DNA from: Morchella semilibera
Taxonomy: Eukaryota; Ascomycota; Pezizomycetes; Pezizales; Morchellaceae
Direction: 5' to 3'
Assembly: GCA_009192285.1 (NCBI GenBank)
Contig: WBVU01000005.1
Coordinates: 2,064,731 to 2,128,730 of the forward strand
DNA: 64,000 nucleotides
Part shown: piece after piece, positions 24,174 to 35,330 of the stretch
Numbering within the stretch: the stretch's first letter is position 1
Layout of the letters: each line of letters begins with the position of its first letter
The notes under the pieces: model-generated
Databases searched by the model: none
What the model was told of the DNA's origin: nothing
What the model saw: only the letters and a program-made list of their open reading frames with translations
Translations under genes and position numbers: made by a program

Positions 24174-24700
24174 ATTTTTTCTGTCATGACTGGACCGGAG
24201 CAGATGGAATAAAGGGCACAAATATTCAATAATAGAAGGGTATATGGGTTTGTTATTTGGTAGGGAAATTGGGGGTTGGGGTTGGGGGAGTGGTGGTAAA
24301 AAAAAAAGATGAGTTGTCGGTGTGTTTTTGTTTACAGTTCGTGTGTGGCAGGCGTCATCATAAACCAAATTATAACCCCTTTTTTGTATCATTTTTTATT
24401 CTTTTTTTAAAGCCTTTTTTATGCCTTTTTTATTATTATATAGCTTTGGTTGTGGGGTGGGGGTTGCTTCATGTGCATGAAGGTGAATGGAATGAAATAA
24501 TATATGCTAACTATACGAACGGCTGTCCAACTTGATGTGTACCTGTATGAGGATGGGGATGAGGATTTGGGGTGGGGTTCGAGAGTCTTTGAGAAAGTGA
24601 GGTTGGGGTTACGGTTTTTCTTGGCGGCGGTGGGGGCCGCGAGTGATGGGTGGTGAGTGGCTGTACGACTGTGAGTGAACCTGAGATATATGTGTAGCTA
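24174..24700. other. 3' flank of VRG4
   Basis: GT- and T-rich sequence between the VRG4 stop codon and the inferred left end of the transposon. No gene seen. Confidence 0.5.
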
Positions 24701-24770
24701 CAGTACCAAAAAAGGGGATGTTCTCGGTACGGTAGCCAGATTTTATTTTGTAGAATACGGTAGGACTATG
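24701..24770 (+). repeat. Left terminal inverted repeat of the transposon
   Basis: Over the 17-nt core after GGGG(A), 13 of 17 positions match the right end, and all four differences are transitions (C/T or G/A). A further patch (GGTAGGACTATGG near 24761) pairs with AGTAGGGCGACTAT of the right end. The exact length is uncertain. Confidence 0.55.
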
Positions 24771-25632
24771 GGTTTCCACAGAAGGCGGTTGTTTGAATAA
24801 TATGTATTATTAAGACTGCCGTCTTGTATTTAGTAGTGTAGCACGACACTCTTATCGGTTAGCGGCATTTGTGGCTGAATGCCGCGTTTAGCCAAGACCA
24901 TACCAATCCCAAACCGTTACCGCATTAGCCCCCGCACTTTAGCGCGACTGTAGGGATGCTGAATGCTCAAGAATGCTATAGCGCTGCGGTCTGCTAACTA
25001 ATACGGTATGTGAGACACGACCGAACTCCCAACAATCTAGCAGGACTGCCGCATTCTATTGAACACCGCCTGCTGATTGGTGTCATAGTGCTACCGGATT
25101 TCACTGAATACTGTATCACTGCCGCATTTCCTCTAAACCCGGTATGGCATTTTTAATATTTTTTTTTCGTTAATAAACCTCGCGTTATTATATGTAATCT
25201 CGTGTATACATGTAATTGTAATGTACATATAGCACCGGGTATTCTTGTATAAAAAATAAGTACATGCAATCTACATACATGTAATTCTAAATGATATGTT
25301 CTCCTAACCCCCGCCCCATATACATGTGGACCTCCAAACTCCTAATACAATGCACCGTTCGCACCCGAATAAAACATGTATGTGAAAGAACAAAAATGTA
25401 TGTAACGCAATGAGATATACATGTAAACGTGCAGTATATACACTGGCACTATCAAAAGGATATAGATAAGAGAATCTCAAAAAAAAATATATAAAAAAAA
25501 ATATAACACAGAATTGATTGAAAAAAAAAAAGAATTGGTTGATAAATGAGGGAAACAAAACGGGGAAGAAAATATAATACAGAATAGATAAAATAAAGCA
25601 GCGCAGAAAGAGGTGGGGGGGGGGTTAAAAAA

Positions 25633-27152
25633 TTATACACACCCGGCAGCGTTGAGCTCACTATCGCCATCAGTGTCATCTGACATCGGGATAGCGGAGC
25701 TTGGGCTTGCACCTCGTTGTGTCAGACCGGCATTTGGAGTGGTGACGACGGGGCGAGCAGATGAGGGTGCGCTGCTAGATGGAGCGGCTTCTTCCACATC
25801 TGCGCTGATGAACGGCACGAAGAGGTCGTCCTTTTCTAGGTTCCTCTTCCTTGACTTACGATAGCGTACCTTACTCGGCGGCTTTGGCGGCAGTAAAACC
25901 AAAAGCTCAACCCCGTATGCCTTAAACTCCTCTTTAAGCCCGATAGCCCTCACACGGTCCATGGCTTCACTCCTGGGGAATGCTCCCGGATCGTTGCGAG
26001 CCTTGTGTGAGTAAATTAAGCTATATATGAACAGAGTCTTATACAGAGCCAGCATATTTGGGTTGCGAAGAGTCTCTCCCCAATCTATCACTGCGCGTGT
26101 AGTGCCGAGGAGGCTGTAGAAGTCCGCAAAATTCCATTTCGTCTCGTATGCCTGTCGGAGATCTCTCTCCGCCAGGGTTGCATAACCCATATTCTCGCTT
26201 TGGATCCGTCGTTGCAGGGCGTCGATATCTATAAAATAGTCGCTAAACCAATTCTTCCTCCAAGAAAGTATCCGATTGTACGCCTTCAGATACCCGTTTG
26301 AGGCAATATCCACTCGTCTGCCAGCTGCGTCGTTAATCATTCGTGGAATCCATTCATCAAGAATGCAGAAGTAGCGAGCAAAAATAAGGCGAGCTTTGCT
26401 GATCAGGTTGTTGAAAAGTTGGCCACCGTCCTTAAATTCGTCGTCGAGTCGACGGTTATCGTAGCGCCGCTTGGAATTCGATTTCTCATATATCGCTTTA
26501 TCTATGGCACTCTGAACCTCTTGGAGTTCCAATCCCTCCGGGGCCTTTGATTCATGTGTATTAGTATACGAGTATGTCGAGTGTCCAAACGCACGCATGT
26601 ACATGTAGTTTTCCTTACCCGGATCACATAATCCGCTTCCACGTTCTCTTCGGCTTCATATGTGAGGCCCAGGTATAGCCATCAGCGGGATCCTCTTCCG
26701 TGATATCTTCATCGATTACTATCTGGGACTCTTGGGACTCTTCGATATCGGAGCGTTGACGCCGTGGAGTGGGCGTGGGTGGGTGTCTTTGTGTCCCGAA
26801 TTGTTGGGCAAGAGCGCCAAATTGCATCTGCATTTGGCCATTGGGCAATTGCTGCTGCTGCTGCGGCTGCTGCTGCTGCGGCTGCTGTTGCTGCGGGTGC
26901 CAAAAGTCATAGTGGCATATTGCGACTGTTGCGACAGCACAGGCACCTGCGACTGTTGCGGCTGTTGTGATTGTGAATGGAAATCATGACCAAGCGTACT
27001 GATGGAGGTCTGCGAGTCATCGTTAGGGGGGGGAAGAGTAAACGTCGTGGAGTAGGCGTTGGAGGACTAACGGGAGTGTTTCTTAGTCCACTGGAGTTAC
27101 TTCTGGCGACACGCCCAATGTTCCGTGCAGGTGTTCTAATTGGCCCTACCAT
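25633..27152 (-). pseudogene. Transposon companion gene A (unknown, Gln/Pro-rich N-terminus), probably degraded
   Basis: The downstream part is a clean open frame: an exon 25633-26544 (303 residues) preceded by a 74-bp intron (26545-26618) with a perfect TACTAAT branch site. It has a helical, Arg/Lys- and aromatic-rich body (for example RLIFARYFCILDEWIPRMI, ILSWRKNWFSDYFIDIDAL) and a Ser/Asp-rich tail. The frame entering the intron reads YEAEENVEADYVIR. Upstream coding-like pieces lie in different frames: an acidic piece (IVIDEDITEEDPADGY), a Pro/Gln repeat (near 26845-26900), a Ser/Gln stretch (26890-26990) and a Pro/Arg-rich start at 27152. I could not join them with ordinary introns, so about three frame changes are implied. 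I do not recognise a domain. Its place inside the element suggests a second (TnpA-like) protein, but that is inference. Confidence 0.5.
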
Positions 27153-27636
27153 TTTTAGAGCTGTATAAAAGCTGTATAAAGTGAGTACGTCAGTGTGGTG
27201 TTAGAGATGCGTGTGAATTAGCACGGCGCTGTATAGAGTCTGTCTGGGTATGGTGTTGATGTTGAGGTAGATGGTGTGCAAAGCGGAGAAAAAAAAGAGG
27301 AGGCTGGTGGGTTAGGGTTTTTGATTCGTTTACTTACGTTGTGTATCCACAGCAACGCCCACGTTAGCAAGGGTTCTCGCTTAGCAGGGCTCTTATTAGA
27401 CCCTTTAACCCGAATAGGACTCGCTAACCTAAATAAGCCAGTATATTGGATTGATAATACAGTTGCTGTAATAATAGATGCAACACTCAAACGGATGTAG
27501 AAACTTTGTGGACTTCAACAACGCGACATGTATTTTGAAACTTTAGTAACTCCAACAACGCTTTACATGTATTTTGATGAATTTCTAGATTGATACATGA
27601 GACGTTGCTGTATTGTTTTCATATTGTCTATCCATC

Positions 27637-28101
27637 CTAAACCATGTATGATGGCAAAACCTCCCAGTAGACAAGTGCCCTGTAGCAATGTTCCCCGTTC
27701 CAAACGAATAGCTTAGGTTTTCCACGAACAGTGGCCTCGATTTCGTGGCCAAGTTCGATGAGCTTGATGAAGAGTTCGCATTCGTGACGCCTGACCCATC
27801 CTCCGTGAGACTGTTTGCCCTCTTTATGACAACGCAATTCGGCCCCGTAGACAGGATTTTCCGCAGTTGAATGAGTCGCTAGAGATTTGTAGACTCTGTA
27901 CTTCATGTTGCGCTTAGGACGAGAAGGATTGATTGTCTTGACGTCGCCCGCGATATCTGTAGTACTGTTAGATGATATCAGCAGAGGGGGGAGAGTCAAG
28001 GTGTTATTACAAACGATATGGGCCATCCCGAAGAGATCGCATTTCTCGTCTTTTATCTCGTCTTTTATATTGGTAATGGGGTCAGAGGAATCTGAAGACA
28101 T
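27637..28101 (-). CDS. Transposon companion frame B, 154 residues, unknown function
   Basis: An uninterrupted frame of 154 residues between companion gene A and the transposase start. It has an acidic N-terminus (TNIKDEIKDEKCD), a basic middle (SRPKRNMKYRVYKSLA) and a C-terminal segment with evenly spaced Cys, His and Trp (AELRCHKEGKQSHGGWVRR; HECELFIKLIELGHEIEA; LFVWNGEHCYRALVYWEVLP). No family recognised. Unlike most frames here, its amino-acid make-up is balanced and looks protein-like. It may be a separate gene, or an exon of a longer minus-strand gene running toward 27152. No transcript evidence is available. Confidence 0.45.
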   Translation of the reverse strand: MSSDSSDPITNIKDEIKDEKCDLFGMAHIVCNNTLTLPPLLISSNSTTDIAGDVKTINPSRPKRNMKYRVYKSLATHSTAENPVYGAELRCHKEGKQSHGGWVRRHECELFIKLIELGHEIEATVRGKPKLFVWNGEHCYRALVYWEVLPSYMV

Positions 28102-28420
28102 GATGAGTATTGTGAGGATGAGGATGGATGGTAGTGGTAATGGTAGTGGTAATAGTGGTAATGGCTAGGGGACGGCATGAATTAATGATTTAAGCAAAAA
28201 TAAAATAAAAGAATGACTGGGGGGCTTAAAAACTGCGATATCGAGTGCGCGGTGGTGATGGAAGCTAGAGTACATGTAACTTCGCTACATGTTTGCACGG
28301 CCGCGAATCCCTGTAATTCCTTAGCCCTACCGCGCGATACCCTTTCGCGTGTGGTATCCTTGCATCTACATCATACATGTACCCTTCCATCATTTGCACG
28401 CACCACGATATCCTGAAAAG

Positions 28421-31400
28421 ATGAGACGCCGAGGATTCAATGAAGATCTCCCGAGTGCACGTATTGAGCGTCCATGTAAGTTATAATCCTATTTTCACGT
28501 TAGCTTATCGGTTAATAATAGTACCGCCATCAGTACCCCCTCGACTTGGTGGACCTTCCACTACTCGCCGCATAATAAGGCACTCGGGTACTCCGGCAGC
28601 CAGGGCCACGAGGCACTTAGCACCGGCCCAGCCGATAGAGATATTCGAGGATGATGATCAAGTACAGGAGGCTGTGTCAATTGCAAATGAGGACGATATT
28701 GAGCCACCAGAGTCGATACTCCAGCCATCTTCATCAGTCAATATTTTAGGTGTCAATTATGGAGAGGATTTAGACATACCGGAGGAGATCGGCGACGAAG
28801 AAAATCACGCTACTATTGGTAATCCGGAACTGGGAAAGAAGCAAGAGGCTCAAGGGGTGGGGGGGGCGGGGTTGGAAGATGCGTCGGTCGATGTTGATAT
28901 AGTAGATGGAGCTATGGGGCCAATCCTTAACATCTCATCTGCGGCGGCAGCGGTGGATCTGTCGACACCACAGTGCCTATCACCAGATCTGGGGCTATCA
29001 ACGCAGAAGGTTCCACCAGAGGACCCAGCAGCGCTGGATCAACCACAAGAGGTGAAAGAGGCAACTGTAATTGAGCGAATAGCAGATGGCCCATGTCCAT
29101 CAAATAGAACGGTTGATGATTTCCATCTCGCTATGATGTTATTCGTCACGGCCTCAGATTTATCGACGTCTCAGTATCAAGCGTTAACGGAAGTCTTGGC
29201 GTTAGCAACCCCGGGGGGAATTTCTTCATTGCCGCGTAGTATCAAGACCCTCAAAGAAAACTGCAGAAAATCTTTCCCGTTGTCCCAGATTAAGGCCCGT
29301 CCAGTTCATATATCTTCTAACGCGACCCCCCCGAAAACAGAGACACCAAAATCTGCATACTACTTCGAACTGCAGAATATTCTCGCTTATGGCTCAACAA
29401 CCCAAAATTAGATTTGCATCTAGGCATGGGTATCATCGTCGACAATCCTACAGAGTTGTGGCATGGAGATGCTTGGCTAGAGAGCGTACGAACAACCTCC
29501 GGAGAGTTTGCGCGGGTTGGGAACGAAATATTATTACCTTCCGACTGTATAACGTTTAAGGATTATGCTGGAAATATCGCGTTTGGGAGAGTCAAGGGAG
29601 TTGGCATCGATAGGAGAGGCTCAGTGACGGCGTCCGGATCGAATACATCCATGTATGCTGCCATCGTTAACCGCTTGCTTCCCGTGGCTCAGCTACCACA
29701 GTACGTCAGCCACCTGGGCCGGGATGTACCAGGTAGTCACAGTTACCCTCTTAACCCTTCTGAGCTCCCAGAGCTCATTCTTTTCGACACTCGAGATATC
29801 ATTCGTTGTTCGGATATAATTTCGAAAGAATGGGTATACTTCACTGATTATGATTCAGTTGAAATGCTGTCGCGAGTCTGCTGCCGCAACCGCCTCGATT
29901 TTGTGTGCGCCGAGTTATATATCAAAGCAGCACCGGCGTTTTATGTACAAGGTCCATACACCAGCGGCACCGGGTGGTTGCCGAGTCTGAACTGACTACA
30001 TTAACCCGCGACTACGTCTTATCCAATCTTGTGAATGGTGGGCAACCTACATTTGTATCAGAGTCGACAACAAGCGGAACTCGACGCGTATCACTCCCAT
30101 ATTCCGTCTTTTTGGATGGTTTTGGCCTCTACCGCAATGCTTATCACAGTCTGAAAGGCATGTACATAACCCCTGCGGGGTTGGACGTGAATAGCCGTAC
30201 CCAACTCAGTAATATGTTTGTTCTTATGATAGGTCCATTCGGGAGTAGTGAAAAAGGGATGGCGGATTGTCTGTCAGAAGATAGTAATAGGGTCGGTAAA
30301 GGGTTTCTGTTGCAATTGGAGTCTGGAGAAGAGGTTATTGCTACTACATTCCCGATCATGTTCGTCGGGGATATGCCACAGCAGAACCAGAACTCTGGTA
30401 ACAAGACCCACAACGCGCAGTTTGGCTGCCGATACTGTTTCATTCCCGACCTTCAACGCGGCAACCTCCAGTTTGATTTCGTCGCTGGGGGTAGGTACAG
30501 GGCGCCGGTCAAGAGACTATACGAAGGTGCAATGAGGCTGGCATCCAAGGCCGCGAGGATGGGTACTTTGCAGGAGTGAGTACTATATTGAGTGCTATGG
30601 AAAACACGGCGGCTAACGATGTGCATGGAATTGCAGGTACGGACTTACCGCTGATGGGCCATACTTTGCGAAATGCTACCCTATGTTAGATCCACAACGG
30701 TCAAATCCAAATGACCCAATGCATGCAGAATTACGCCTCAGTAAATATTTCGCTGAAACGCTTGTTGATGGGATATTGTCACCGTCAGGTATGAGATTAT
30801 ACTCCTATCATACGTTGATGTACTCGAGGAACAGTTTTTGACGATACATGTAGGTATACTTGCGTATCGCGCGGCGTGGGAGGACGTCGAAGTACCATAT
30901 GGTTGGGGTCAACCACAGAACCCCGTGAATCACAAAGGGTCCATGGTGTTCAGCGAGCATGGCGAGATGGCGATAATGAATCCCTTCATTTTGCTACACC
31001 TTTTTACGAACGACGAATCAAAGCATATAGAGGACAACCCGCGGCGAGCAGAGAATAAATCATACCTAAAACTGGGTGTTGAAGCCAAGATGGTTCAGAT
31101 GTTTGGTTCAGTCAGTGCCGCAAGGATGCATATCATTAGGACAGCATTCTTAATGGCCAAAACAGTGGATTTGACAATGAAAAGAACACTGAGCCCAACA
31201 GAACGGAAGGAATTTCATTCGACCGTTATAGAAGATCGGATTCTACTACGAAAATTCTTTCTATCTATGGGCGGTAGTAAAGGGAGCTATCAAAAATACG
31301 CTGATGTTCCGAACGTTCACCTGGGTCTACACTATGCGCAAGATGTAGAGAATTATGCGACGACTTATAATGCTGGAACCATGTTAGGCGAGCAGAAACA

Positions 31401-32163
31401 CAAAGTATTCAAACAACACGCAGCACATACCAATTCTAAAGACAGTGATTTCCAGCTCCTGAAAGCGATCAACACGACCCAGACCATTAGGTTTCTTCTT
31501 GATGGCACATACACTCAATCCGCCCCCGATATCAGCAGACAAATCCGAATTGTTGTGGATCGGTGCCCGATCTTGAAGGCTAGGTTTCTTGGTAGAGCAT
31601 CGGCCGAAGCAGAGCAAGGCGACACGACTGGAGGTGTTGATACATCCGGAAGCCTTCTAAAATTTGCCAAGACCGGCCGCCCACTAACCCTGAAGGCTAT
31701 TGGAGGGGGGAATTGCGATTCAGACCTTCAATTGTTGACAGCCCACTACAAAAATGTTTTACGTATCACGCTCGTGAGGAACATGAAATACAAGATTCAT
31801 TATTGGGGCTATATGAGTGGCAAGACCCGTGTAAGGTCAGTTTATGAGGGCCACCACATGTACAGATTATCCGCCCCTGGTGGTTTCGTGAGATTGCGAG
31901 GAGATCCCCCTTTGACTTTCTACTGGGTTCACCGCATACTGACTCTGACTATGGGGACAAACGTTTCGGTGTTTCTTATCCTAGAGGTATTGCAAAGGGA
32001 TACAGCAGGGGCGGAAGTGGCCGCCGCGCCTTACCCGGTCTACAAGAAAACATCGTGTGTGGTCGTTGCAAATCTTGCCAGGGTTGATCCTACAATACTT
32101 CACTTTGTAAAAAAAGGGGCTGATTCTTGGTGGTGGAATCCCTTTGTTCCTCAGTTCATGTAA
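28421..32163 (+). pseudogene. CMC (CACTA/Tnp2-like) transposase gene, largely open but with two frame breaks
   Basis: The start MRRRGFNEDLPSARIE at 28421 splices over a 46-bp intron (28476-28521) into a long exon. Later introns at 30576-30636 and 30789-30853 fit in phase. The first 300 residues are acidic and disordered. Then come LHLGMGIIVDNPTELWHGDAW, a region reading FVGDMPQQNQNSGNK...CRYCFIP (a likely first catalytic Asp and a CxxC metal site), NPNDPMHAELRLSKYF (like the DPMHN motif of Tnp2-type transposases), NHKGSMVFSEHG, and VHLGLHYAQDVENY...MLGEQKHKVFKQH near the C-terminus. Two reading-frame shifts, near 29400 and near 29975, are not explained by introns, so the copy is probably inactive. 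More than 90% of the frame stays open, which suggests a fairly recent loss. The superfamily assignment rests on remembered motifs. Confidence 0.62.
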
Positions 32164-32488
32164 TGGTCATTTCGCCACTATTTTTTCTTTCTTTCACTTT
32201 TTTTTTTTTGTGTGTGATAAGGGCTTGGGGGCGCCAGCCCTAACCGCACTATGGGAGACTCGTACTGTCTTTATCTTTCCCTTTCTCGCACCCTCTCCCC
32301 TTTCTTTCTCATCAACCAATCATCATCTCTTCTACCAATACAGTTTTTTTCACGCGATAATACGTGCACCACCATCACGGATACATGTACATGATTTATT
32401 TTCGTGATATAAGGTAAAGACTACCGTACATGCTTCATGCTAATCCATTTACCGTTTATCAACAGATCATCTCCGAAAACACTATCAG

Positions 32489-32845
32489 GGCTTCTTTTAT
32501 GCATCAACCAATCACGGTAATCAAACATCCCCTCTCGCGTCTGTTACTGATCATCTGAAAATACTGCCAGCGTTTCTTTTTACGCGTCGCTAGATCATCA
32601 CGGTAATGAACACATTTCCTTCTCGTTTGTTGCTGATGACTGATAATAACTTATAGTAGTGTTTCTTTCACGCGTCGCCATATCAGAGTGTATGTTATCA
32701 TTGCGGTAATGAACTCATTTCCTTCTGCTTTGTTGCTGATGACCGTGATAATAACTTACATGTAGTGTTTCTTTTTACGCGGCGCTAAATCAATCATAAC
32801 GGTAATGAAAACATTCCCTTCTCGCGTCCGTTGCTGATGATTATA
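32489..32845 (+). repeat. Imperfect tandem repeat, about 80-105 bp unit, four copies
   Basis: Units begin near 32489, 32572, 32661 and 32767. Each has the order (G)TTTCTTTT..ACGCG, then CGGTAATGAA, then TTCCCTTCTCG/TTCCTTCT, then TTGCTGATGA. They lie between the transposase stop and the right end of the element, so they may be subterminal binding repeats. Confidence 0.65.
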
Positions 32846-33072
32846 ATGCACAGATATCACAGATACATGTATACAGATTCGCAGCTGTGGTAAGTAACAG
32901 GTGAGCCTAAATGTCGTGTTTCCCTTTGTTTTTGTCATTGACTCATCGCAGTGAGCGAAGATTTGTATATATTGGATTTCGGTATAGATACATGTACATG
33001 TACGTGTAGATAATGTATGATCAAATAAAATATGACTTGAGATTCGTAACATGACAGAATAGTATCTTGACT

Positions 33073-33136
33073 TGAAATACGAATGCCGTGAAATACGAAT
33101 GCCGTGAAATACGAATGCCGTGAAATACGAATGCCA
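33073..33136 (+). repeat. Four tandem copies of a 16-bp unit
   Basis: TGAAATACGAATGCCG is repeated at 33073, 33089, 33105 and 33121, the last copy differing at its final base. The ATGCCG word also recurs at both subterminal regions of the element. Confidence 0.9.
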
Positions 33137-33749
33137 TAAAATATAGTAACACTACAGCATTTCTATGCCATACGGTAGGGATATTCGATTGTGGTGCAGA
33201 TAATCTCGAGAGAAATGCGGTAGTAGCATGGCATTCAAACCATAGTCTAGAGAATGGGCATCATACACCATACCGTTCCAATGTCATAGTGATTCGGCAC
33301 TTTATGGCAAATAGTCTCCGAAAGATTACAGTAATACTATAGTGGGTGGAGGGTCTTTGTTAGGAAGGGGCACGAAAGAGAATTCCGTAATAGTACAGTC
33401 GTAGAACCATATTTATCAGAAGATAGTCTCCAAAAAGTTACCGCACTGCTATAGGAGCCGGAGAGCCTCGGTTGGCAATGCGCATGGGCCAGAAGCGAGT
33501 AGGACTACGGTCGGACAACCGCATTCTTCGCCATATTTCCTGATTGAGAATGCGGCACTAACGCTACAGTACTACTAGCGTGGAAGTAATGCCGCTCCAC
33601 CCTAAGACTTGCTCACTACGGTCGCACTTCCCTATTGTCAACAAGCGAGCATTGCTAATAAGCGGAATTGTTTTAGAAATACGTATTGTCTCCAACACAT
33701 TAATCTCAACAATATCGACCTATATCGGCATTGTTCAGAATGACACATT

Positions 33750-33813
33750 CTTCAGAAGATAGTCGCCCTACTATAGTACTACTATACCAGGAACACCCCT
33801 ATTTTTGTTGCTG
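33750..33813 (-). repeat. Right terminal inverted repeat of the transposon
   Basis: Read on the minus strand from 33813 inward it starts CAGCAACAAAAATAGGGGTG and mirrors the left end with small gaps. The inner limit is uncertain. Confidence 0.55.
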
Positions 33814-35330
33814 TAAGTATATGTATATAAGTATTCTATTGAGAGCGGTCAAGATTACATGTACTTAGGCCGGTAGATACATGTATTTGTAGATACAGAT
33901 ACCGCAGGATACCCCCCGGGGGGCCGCCGCTAGATAGATTCGTGGCTGGCTGGCAGATCTTAGTAAATACACACGGTCTGTCAGCATGGGCTATTGTGAT
34001 TCACATGCCAGGAGATGATGTATGTGTATGGGTCCCGACCCTCGGGGATCGACGGCCCGCGCGGGTGGCGTCCGCGGGGATGGAGGGAGTGGGCTGTGGG
34101 CTGTGGGATGTGATGTGGACCTGCAGATGGTCGCGGCCACTGAGATGCATGCTTGAGCACATGTGCAGAGTCTAGAAAGGTGGGTCTTGAAAGAAAAAAA
34201 AAAGTTAGTCCACCAGGGGTGGGGATCGAACCCACCCCCATGCGCGGCTGGGGGCATGTCGACACCCACCTTCTCTGCCGCTTTAAACCTCACCTGCCAA
34301 AAAGCGGGTTCAACCCCCGCGCGAGAATCCATAGGCGGTTAAGTAATTCTACTTGTCCAAGGCGGCAGTACGTTAGGGGAAGAAAATAAAAAAAAACAAT
34401 TGAGGGAAATAAAATTACATACATATACACATATATTTACCAGGAAGGAGGAGAAGGGGGGGAGGAAGAAGGAGAAGCCAGTCCCCTCACCGAATCCGCA
34501 TGCCAGTATACGCGTCGTTACCGCCGCCCGGCGGCCCCGGCCCCTCCTCCTCCTCGTGCTGCCGCATGGATAGTAAACTATTACAAGGCGGAGCGTGGGC
34601 AGTAAAAGCAATTTGTGTTGGGGAGGGGGCCGCGGGTTGTTATACGTAGCCAGGTTCTTGGCAGGGCGCTGGACCTCCGGCGCCGACGGTGTTGTGTTGT
34701 GACGACGGCTTGCAGGATCTCCTAGGTTACGCACGGAGAAACTGTCCTAGGGAAAAGGGGGGGCAGCTGTATAAATACCACTTCGCCCCCCCCCACGGTT
34801 CTACTTAGCGGCGGCGGTGGCTTACGAGTGATGGTCTATGATGCAGGTGCTAGGCCATCTTACCCCCCCCCCTTTCTTTGGGGAGTGTAACTTTGTTATC
34901 AGTGCAGAGAATGCTCTAAGGGCACTGCATTACTGTTGGGTCTCTAGAGATGCAGGTATGTTCAAACGGGTAAGGATGAGGCTGGGATTTCGGCCTTGTT
35001 TTGGGTGCTGCGTTTCAATGCGCAAGTATAGTATCCTTCCTAGCTCTAGGAGCTTTTTTTTATATCATTGATTATATGTATAGCTCACACATAGAAATTT
35101 AGTTACTCATCACCTTGTATACCAAACATCAGTGTGATGGTATGAGGCTCGCCAATAGAAGCTTACAGCCCTTTCACAGATTATCACTCGGCCCACCACA
35201 TACACAGCAAGAAGCTGGTTTACATTCCGACATGAGCAACGTACTATTTGATTATCATTCATAAAGACAAAAGGAAGAACCCCCACAATCTAAATACATA
35301 AGTAACCGTAACAAAAGGAGGGAGTCACTC
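33814..35330. other. Intergenic right of the transposon
   Basis: No protein-coding gene recognised. Contains the tRNA-like relic described separately, TACATGTA palindromes (33856, 33882) and a C-rich homopolymer near 34785. Confidence 0.45.
34194..34320 (-). other. tRNA-like relic (two T-arm-like hairpins, Pol III-type terminator)
   Basis: On the minus strand GTGGG-TTCGATC-CCCAC (34219-34235) is a canonical T-arm/B-box. It is followed about 15 nt later by a run of ten T (34194-34203), as at Pol III terminators. A second canonical T-arm, GCGGG-TTCAACC-CCCGC, lies on the + strand at 34304-34320, facing the other way. I could not fold a full cloverleaf with a matching acceptor stem from either, so I call it a relic or tRNA-derived repeat and not a tRNA gene. 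Confidence 0.3.

Follow-up and report, generated by a model that had tools for sequence, protein, structure and literature searches.

A 9.1-kb DNA transposon of the broad CACTA group in Morchella semilibera, with companion genes and a probable TA target site

The 64-kb window analysed here lies on contig C21 (2064731-2128730) in a Morchella semilibera genome assembly of 56.8 Mb in 23 contigs. Positions 24701-33813 of the window are a complete cut-and-paste DNA transposon of 9113 bp that belongs to the broad CACTA group. We regard it with high confidence as a CACTA-like element of the CMC clade that targets TA and carries companion genes. A first-pass annotation, made from the letters alone, had proposed a multi-gene DNA transposon with CAG-type ends at this place, and the proposal is backed by a second copy, by relatives elsewhere in the genome, by miniature inverted-repeat transposable elements (MITEs) and by the empty site of one of these MITEs. 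The divergent layout of three genes that it described is present, with the transposase gene on one strand and two companion frames on the other.

The second copy, G000:C1:5999115-6008234 (9120 bp), lies on another contig in different flanks and begins and stops at identical bases, which makes 24701 and 33813 the true borders of the element. The genome search for copies with the same ends that had been suggested at the first pass thus gave a positive answer: the left end led to one further place, C1:5999110, and the right end to its partner, C1:6007571-6008234, with TA on both sides. Between the two copies there are 15 differences: four are substitutions and the other 11 are one-base indels, of which nine are insertions in the C1 copy and two are deletions there. 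Being near-identical, the copies are probably recent, and with two transitions among the four substitutions they do not differ by wholesale C-to-T change of the repeat-induced point mutation type. Their right flanks have only the TA in common; the left flanks share AGCTA, and we take the three bases beyond the TA as chance. By our own gene models, the transposase and companion frames of the window copy are shifted by single bases when compared with the C1 copy, and the latter reads open across the modelled transposase exons.

As had been noticed at the first pass, the two ends match as imperfect terminal inverted repeats. The left one (24701-24740, plus strand) starts CAGTACCAAAAAAGGGGATG, and the right one (33774-33813, minus strand) reads CAGCAACAAAAATAGGGGTG on the minus strand. 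Their outer 40 bases pair with 30 identities over 43 alignment columns, and the 100-base border stretches reach a local score of 23, a value attained by none of 2000 random window pairs (maximum 16). Both repeats are placed by the comparison of copies and by this pairing score, and the left one also by the recurrence of its end throughout the genome. Both copies read TA-CAG...CTG-TA; in the window, the two TA of the putative target-site duplication lie at 24699-24700 and 33814-33815, assigned from the flanks of the copies and from the empty site of a MITE with the same ends.

The transposase gene (28421-32163, plus strand) was delimited from its frames, a model and alignment, and comprises four modelled exons. 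In the C1 copy, the model runs from an ATG corresponding to window position 28421 through three GT..AG introns to a stop, and yields 1190 amino acids. We grouped its matches in the genome into 16 closer-clade loci (about 32-61% identity per matched piece, excluding the two copies), four distant loci (30-38%) and two short fragments. For the alignment, 20 stretches were matched and six duplicates removed; two of the remaining 14 rows are still near-identical and two others are parts of one locus. Residues D551, D636, C655, C658, H910 and H914 are invariant in the 9 to 12 rows aligned at each of these positions, and E934 is kept where aligned, bar one degenerate fragment. Members of the CMC/CMCT clade are defined by a D, D, E triad, by C(2)C and H(3-4)H motifs located between the second D and the E, by termini that are mostly 5'-CA..TG-3' and by a target duplication of 2-5 bp (PMC12730594). 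The signature D, D, C(2)C, H(3)H, E is present in the transposase family, and the CAG...CTG ends and the TA fall within the ranges given for termini and duplication. The label 'Tnp2-like' given at the first pass therefore holds for the catalytic motif pattern and not for the Pfam family: Transposase_21 (PF02992) was not listed for the window pieces (E up to 1), nor for the pieces of the C1 copy and three relatives (E up to 10). Other Pfam names that appeared below threshold in the scans of transposase pieces, relatives, companion and small protein, MAGE_N, TFIIA (E 0.00086), DUF4678, Ndc1_Nup, THBD, SARAF, DUF533, DUF908 and DUF1177, were set aside as effects of chance or composition. A tblastn search of plasmids with a transposase exon frame gave no match, and of the four pattern matches returned by a scan of IMG/VR with a relative's transposase, none was confirmed.

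The companion gene (25633-27152, minus strand), delimited from reading frames, relatives and alignment, was read by eye as two exons. Its product has a Q- and P-rich N-terminal part, likely supplied by the upstream exon, followed by a conserved domain of about 230 amino acids and a basic tail. A 323-residue query found 26 matches in the genome. At 13 of the 16 closer transposase loci, as grouped above, the companion lies 5' of the transposase on the opposite strand, in divergent orientation (C21, C1:6.00M, C9 and C10:1.71M, C5, C1:4.66M, C23, C1:4.25M, C1:3.83M, C20, C9 and C10:0.92M, and C2:5.70M). As copies and contig pairs are not independent, we count these 13 loci as nine lineages. The companion is nearby but on the same strand at two more (C19 and C1:4.07M), and no match to it was found at C14, the last of the closer loci. 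In an alignment of the query with five other lineages, at 38-57% identity per aligned piece, 49 positions are identical in all six rows, including K45, R46, Y48, D49, W115-W119, G167, T168 and T169; the motifs KRxYD, WRKNW and GTT, then a basic tail, are kept throughout. The divergence of the companion appears to track that of the transposase in five families: over 10 pairs, the pairwise identities of the two proteins give a Pearson r of 0.98, which depends largely on a single close pair (71% and 72%), and a Spearman coefficient of 0.57 (p=0.09). No Pfam family scored above its cut-off for the companion, and AlphaFold predictions of two companion proteins as single sequences, with mean predicted local distance difference test scores of 30.3 and 39.1, were too poor to use.

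The small gene between these two (27637-28101, minus strand), identified from its reading frame, genome matches and alignment, encodes a protein of 154 amino acids without assigned domain, for which Pfam and PDB profile searches gave no family match above cut-off. Its product has 15 matches in the genome, and it stands between companion and transposase at seven of the 16 loci (C21, C1:6.00M, C9 and C10:1.71M, C5, and C9 and C10:0.92M). The other eight matches are outside this layout; among these, C19:2.116M adjoins the C19 companion and C2:5.706M is about 4 kb from the C2 companion. The pair at C9/C10:1.71M matches with an E-value of 5e-14, and those at C5 and C9/C10:0.92M do not surpass the strongest matches outside the layout (about 1e-6). 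Seventeen positions are common to the three rows of the small-protein alignment.

That the companion and the small gene are passengers, as captured host genes or silencing antagonists standing outside the transposition machinery, seems to us unlikely, if far from negligible. Captured TET/JBP genes do occur in fungal transposons (PMC12730594). For the companion, the lack of a detectable counterpart at the four most diverged transposase loci fits such an origin, but its retention in divergent orientation in nine lineages and its divergence in step with the transposase in five families argue for a part in transposition. The counter-evidence is much weaker for the small gene, which is present in the layout at seven of 16 loci, and several of whose eight matches elsewhere have E-values like those at C5 and C9:0.92M.

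The subterminal repeats reported at the first pass are found on both sides of the element. AATGCGG/CCGCATT occurs nine times in the window, and six of these occurrences are in the two ends: CCGCATT at 24920, 25049 and 25122 in the left subterminal region (24701-25160), and AATGCGG at 33214 and 33549 and CCGCATT at 33519 in the right one (33141-33813). Any 7-mer with three copies on each side was seen in none of 500 dinucleotide shuffles and in four of 500 random segment pairs. In the plant element En/Spm, TNPA recognises subterminal repeats, and both TNPA and TNPD are required (PMC2613891). We propose that the transposase of the window element would make double-strand cuts at the CAG/CTG ends and join these to a TA target with a two-base stagger, and that the companion protein might bind the AATGCGG-type repeats in the manner of TNPA, a role for which we see the chances as even. 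The small protein might, at a guess, be accessory or regulatory. The right part of the element holds further repeats, head-to-tail copies of a 16-bp unit, TGCCGTGAAATACGAA, at 33084-33131, and four spaced repeats of about 47 bp at 32508-32839.

We consider it very improbable that the element is a divergent copy of Plavaka, a CMC-like transposon that is abundant in this genome, with 128 matching stretches. Plavaka elements (Pfam PF18759) are fungal CMC-like transposons with short duplications (PMC12730594), and the best Pfam match of the transposase is indeed to this family; yet it concerns one relative over profile positions 188-311, and its 16.7 bits are below the curated cut-off of 26.3, whereas Plavaka loci in the genome score up to 265.5 bits. 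None of the 128 listed Plavaka places coincides with the transposase loci, and comparing profiles with one of the genome's Plavaka stretches gave no match. The ends differ as well, Plavaka being described with TGT..ACA or CATCA..TGATG (PMC12730594) and the window element having CAG...CTG. As a separate observation, the stretch C2:3130408-3136273 contains, at about base 2084-2220, a 137-bp insert, CATCAGCAAACTC...GCTGATG, flanked by TA, with ends that resemble those reported for PlavakaB; the insert is missing from the 99% identical copy C1:2778371-2784097, where one TA marks a clean empty site.

The ends of the window element recur widely in the genome. Allowing up to three mismatches, the pattern TACAGTACCAAAAAAGGGG has 278+254 (532) matches, against 14+8 (22) for a control read backwards. 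Inverted pairs of the exact 12-base end, 130-160 bases apart, occur at 12 places, two of which are C9/C10 counterparts, and at none with the control; they correspond to MITEs of about 170 bp. Nine MITEs were drawn from 100 listed places among the 532 pattern matches. In seven of them, the ends agree with the left end of the window element without mismatch over 22-23 bases including the TA, and the interiors differ from that element. Short non-autonomous derivatives with the same ends as the 9.1-kb element are thus present in the genome, and transposases of its family may mobilise them in trans. All nine read TA-CAG...CTG-TA, which is not independent evidence for the TA because they were chosen by a pattern containing it; the listed pattern matches include a few with TG in its place.

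More direct indications on the target site come from long copies and from an empty site. A second full-length family consists of C1:4242097-4252784 and a copy on C23, 99.7% identical over 5.25 kb; its homology ends at CTG plus TA on one side, and both copies start TA-CAGTACCAGAAAATGGGG at the other. Over the four long copies of the two families, TA stands outside CAG at eight of eight ends. A pattern without the TA found six ends in the sequence stretches examined, three of them beyond these eight, and TA precedes all six. The MITE at C14:854918-855077 sits inside a dispersed repeat, and its joined flanks match 28 listed places across the joint; the nine of these unoccupied paralogues that were inspected all have a single TA at the joint. 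The ends are therefore 5'-CAG...CTG-3' and the target duplication is TA. This duplication is directly visible for the C14 MITE, and for the 9.1-kb element we infer it from the end sequence that the two have in common. Termini reading TACAG...CTGTA, inserted without any target duplication, would account for the TA before CAG at all ends read in the long copies and for the lack of a longer duplication, but the single TA in all nine inspected paralogues is not expected on that account, which is refuted for the MITE and to which we otherwise give almost no credence.

Among the nine MITE joints searched for empty sites, C14 was the one for which unoccupied paralogues were found; a row for the C23 joint, C1:193647, which extended seven bases beyond the TA, was set aside as part of an inverted repeat. 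For the C1 copy, a search of the genome with the joined flanks matched its own two flanks and no empty site. For the C5 relative, no right end was found in the stretch examined, and for the C9:1.71-Mb relative the 875 bp examined gave no downstream end. The palindrome TACATGTA occurs 40 times in the window, against about one occurrence expected from base composition, and the empty joint reads TACATGTA at two of 11 insertion sites (the window element, the C1 element and the nine MITEs). Nothing on this palindrome in fungal genomes was found in the literature searched.

Several points weigh against the interpretation of the window element as a TA-targeting CMC transposon with functional companions. 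The empty site belongs to a MITE, and the 700-bp left flank of the window element matched its own locus only. None of the three proteins has a Pfam family above cut-off, and PDB profile searches gave one meaningless match or none, with nothing credible among them. No companion match was found at the four most diverged transposase loci or at the two short fragments, and the DNA-binding role suggested for the companion is drawn entirely from analogy.

The nearest published systems are ESTA (PMC12730594) and Sly1-1 (PMC4592977), which were compared with the window element by their descriptions. The ESTA elements of rusts are EnSpm-like with a TA target duplication; they have an EnSpm/RAG1-like transposase with C(2)C and H(3-4)H, and termini of the CA..TG type are reported for most of their clade (PMC12730594). 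An EnSpm-like transposase and a TA duplication are also what we find, by the motif pattern and the MITE empty site. The three described ESTA elements differ in that they carry a TET/JBP gene, and they are listed for rusts (PMC12730594); no Pfam match to TET/JBP was listed for the gene pieces scanned here, and the window element has a different companion. Sly1-1 of Neurospora crassa, an 11.5-kb low-copy element, is similar in size and has a CMC transposase with C(2)C and H(3)H next to a gene without assigned function, the pair being divergently transcribed in Chaetomium (PMC4592977). A divergent companion beside a CMC transposase is likewise found here, but the target duplication of Sly1-1 is of at least three bases, as the text names a third nucleotide (PMC4592977), and that of the Morchella element appears to be TA.

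A canonical EnSpm/CACTA element was rejected as an explanation, given that the ends read CAGTACC... and not CACTA (CAC..GTG), that the duplication is TA and not 3 bp, and that no Transposase_21 was listed for the pieces and relatives scanned. TNPA and TNPD of En/Spm are products of one alternatively spliced unit, whereas the transposase and companion here are separate divergent genes. The plant elements resemble ours in combining a transposase with a second element-coded protein, subterminal repeated motifs and non-autonomous derivatives, and differ in their CACTA ends and in the 3-bp duplication of the soybean element described (PMC2613891). By the features tested, the Morchella element is neither canonical CACTA nor Plavaka; it is an ordinary mechanism in a poorly described lineage. 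No single lineage uniting a TA target, CAG ends, a conserved companion domain and a load of MITEs was found described in the open-licence literature searched. The earlier suggestion of an undescribed system consequently stands for this four-feature combination, but not more broadly, as ESTA (PMC12730594) and Sly1-1 (PMC4592977) have been published.

The genome searches also brought up features of the assembly and of the broken relatives. The contig pairs C9/C10, C12/C13 and C21/C22 gave matching hits at nearly equal coordinates, and two stretches of about 6.5 kb on C9 and C10 show 100% identity, as would be expected had two nuclei or duplicate contigs been assembled. The stretch C4:2626102-2629479 has, at about base 2122-2699, an insertion of about 580 bp relative to its copy on C1, and the C19 relative contains an 86% match to this insertion. 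A repeat of about 640 bp, 79-97% identical between pairs, is found in broken relatives, in the stretches C1:3824261, C1:3830873, C14, C19 and C1:4072546. A search with a 13-kb DNA query gave 45 matches, to dispersed repeats and relatives, but did not recover the query itself.

Tentatively, and at a little below an even chance, we suggest that these elements form a separate CMC lineage, in which a TA-directed transposase and a companion whose domain is absent from Pfam make up a fixed divergent pair that has been kept over nine lineages and feeds MITEs with the same ends. Transib, from which RAG1 derives, is placed within the CMCT clade, where target duplications of 2 to 5 bp occur (PMC12730594). 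With near-identical copies, graded relatives, the companion domain and short substrates together in one genome, what fixes the TA target becomes testable. The same lineage makes it testable whether non-homologous helper proteins play the part of TNPA outside plants.

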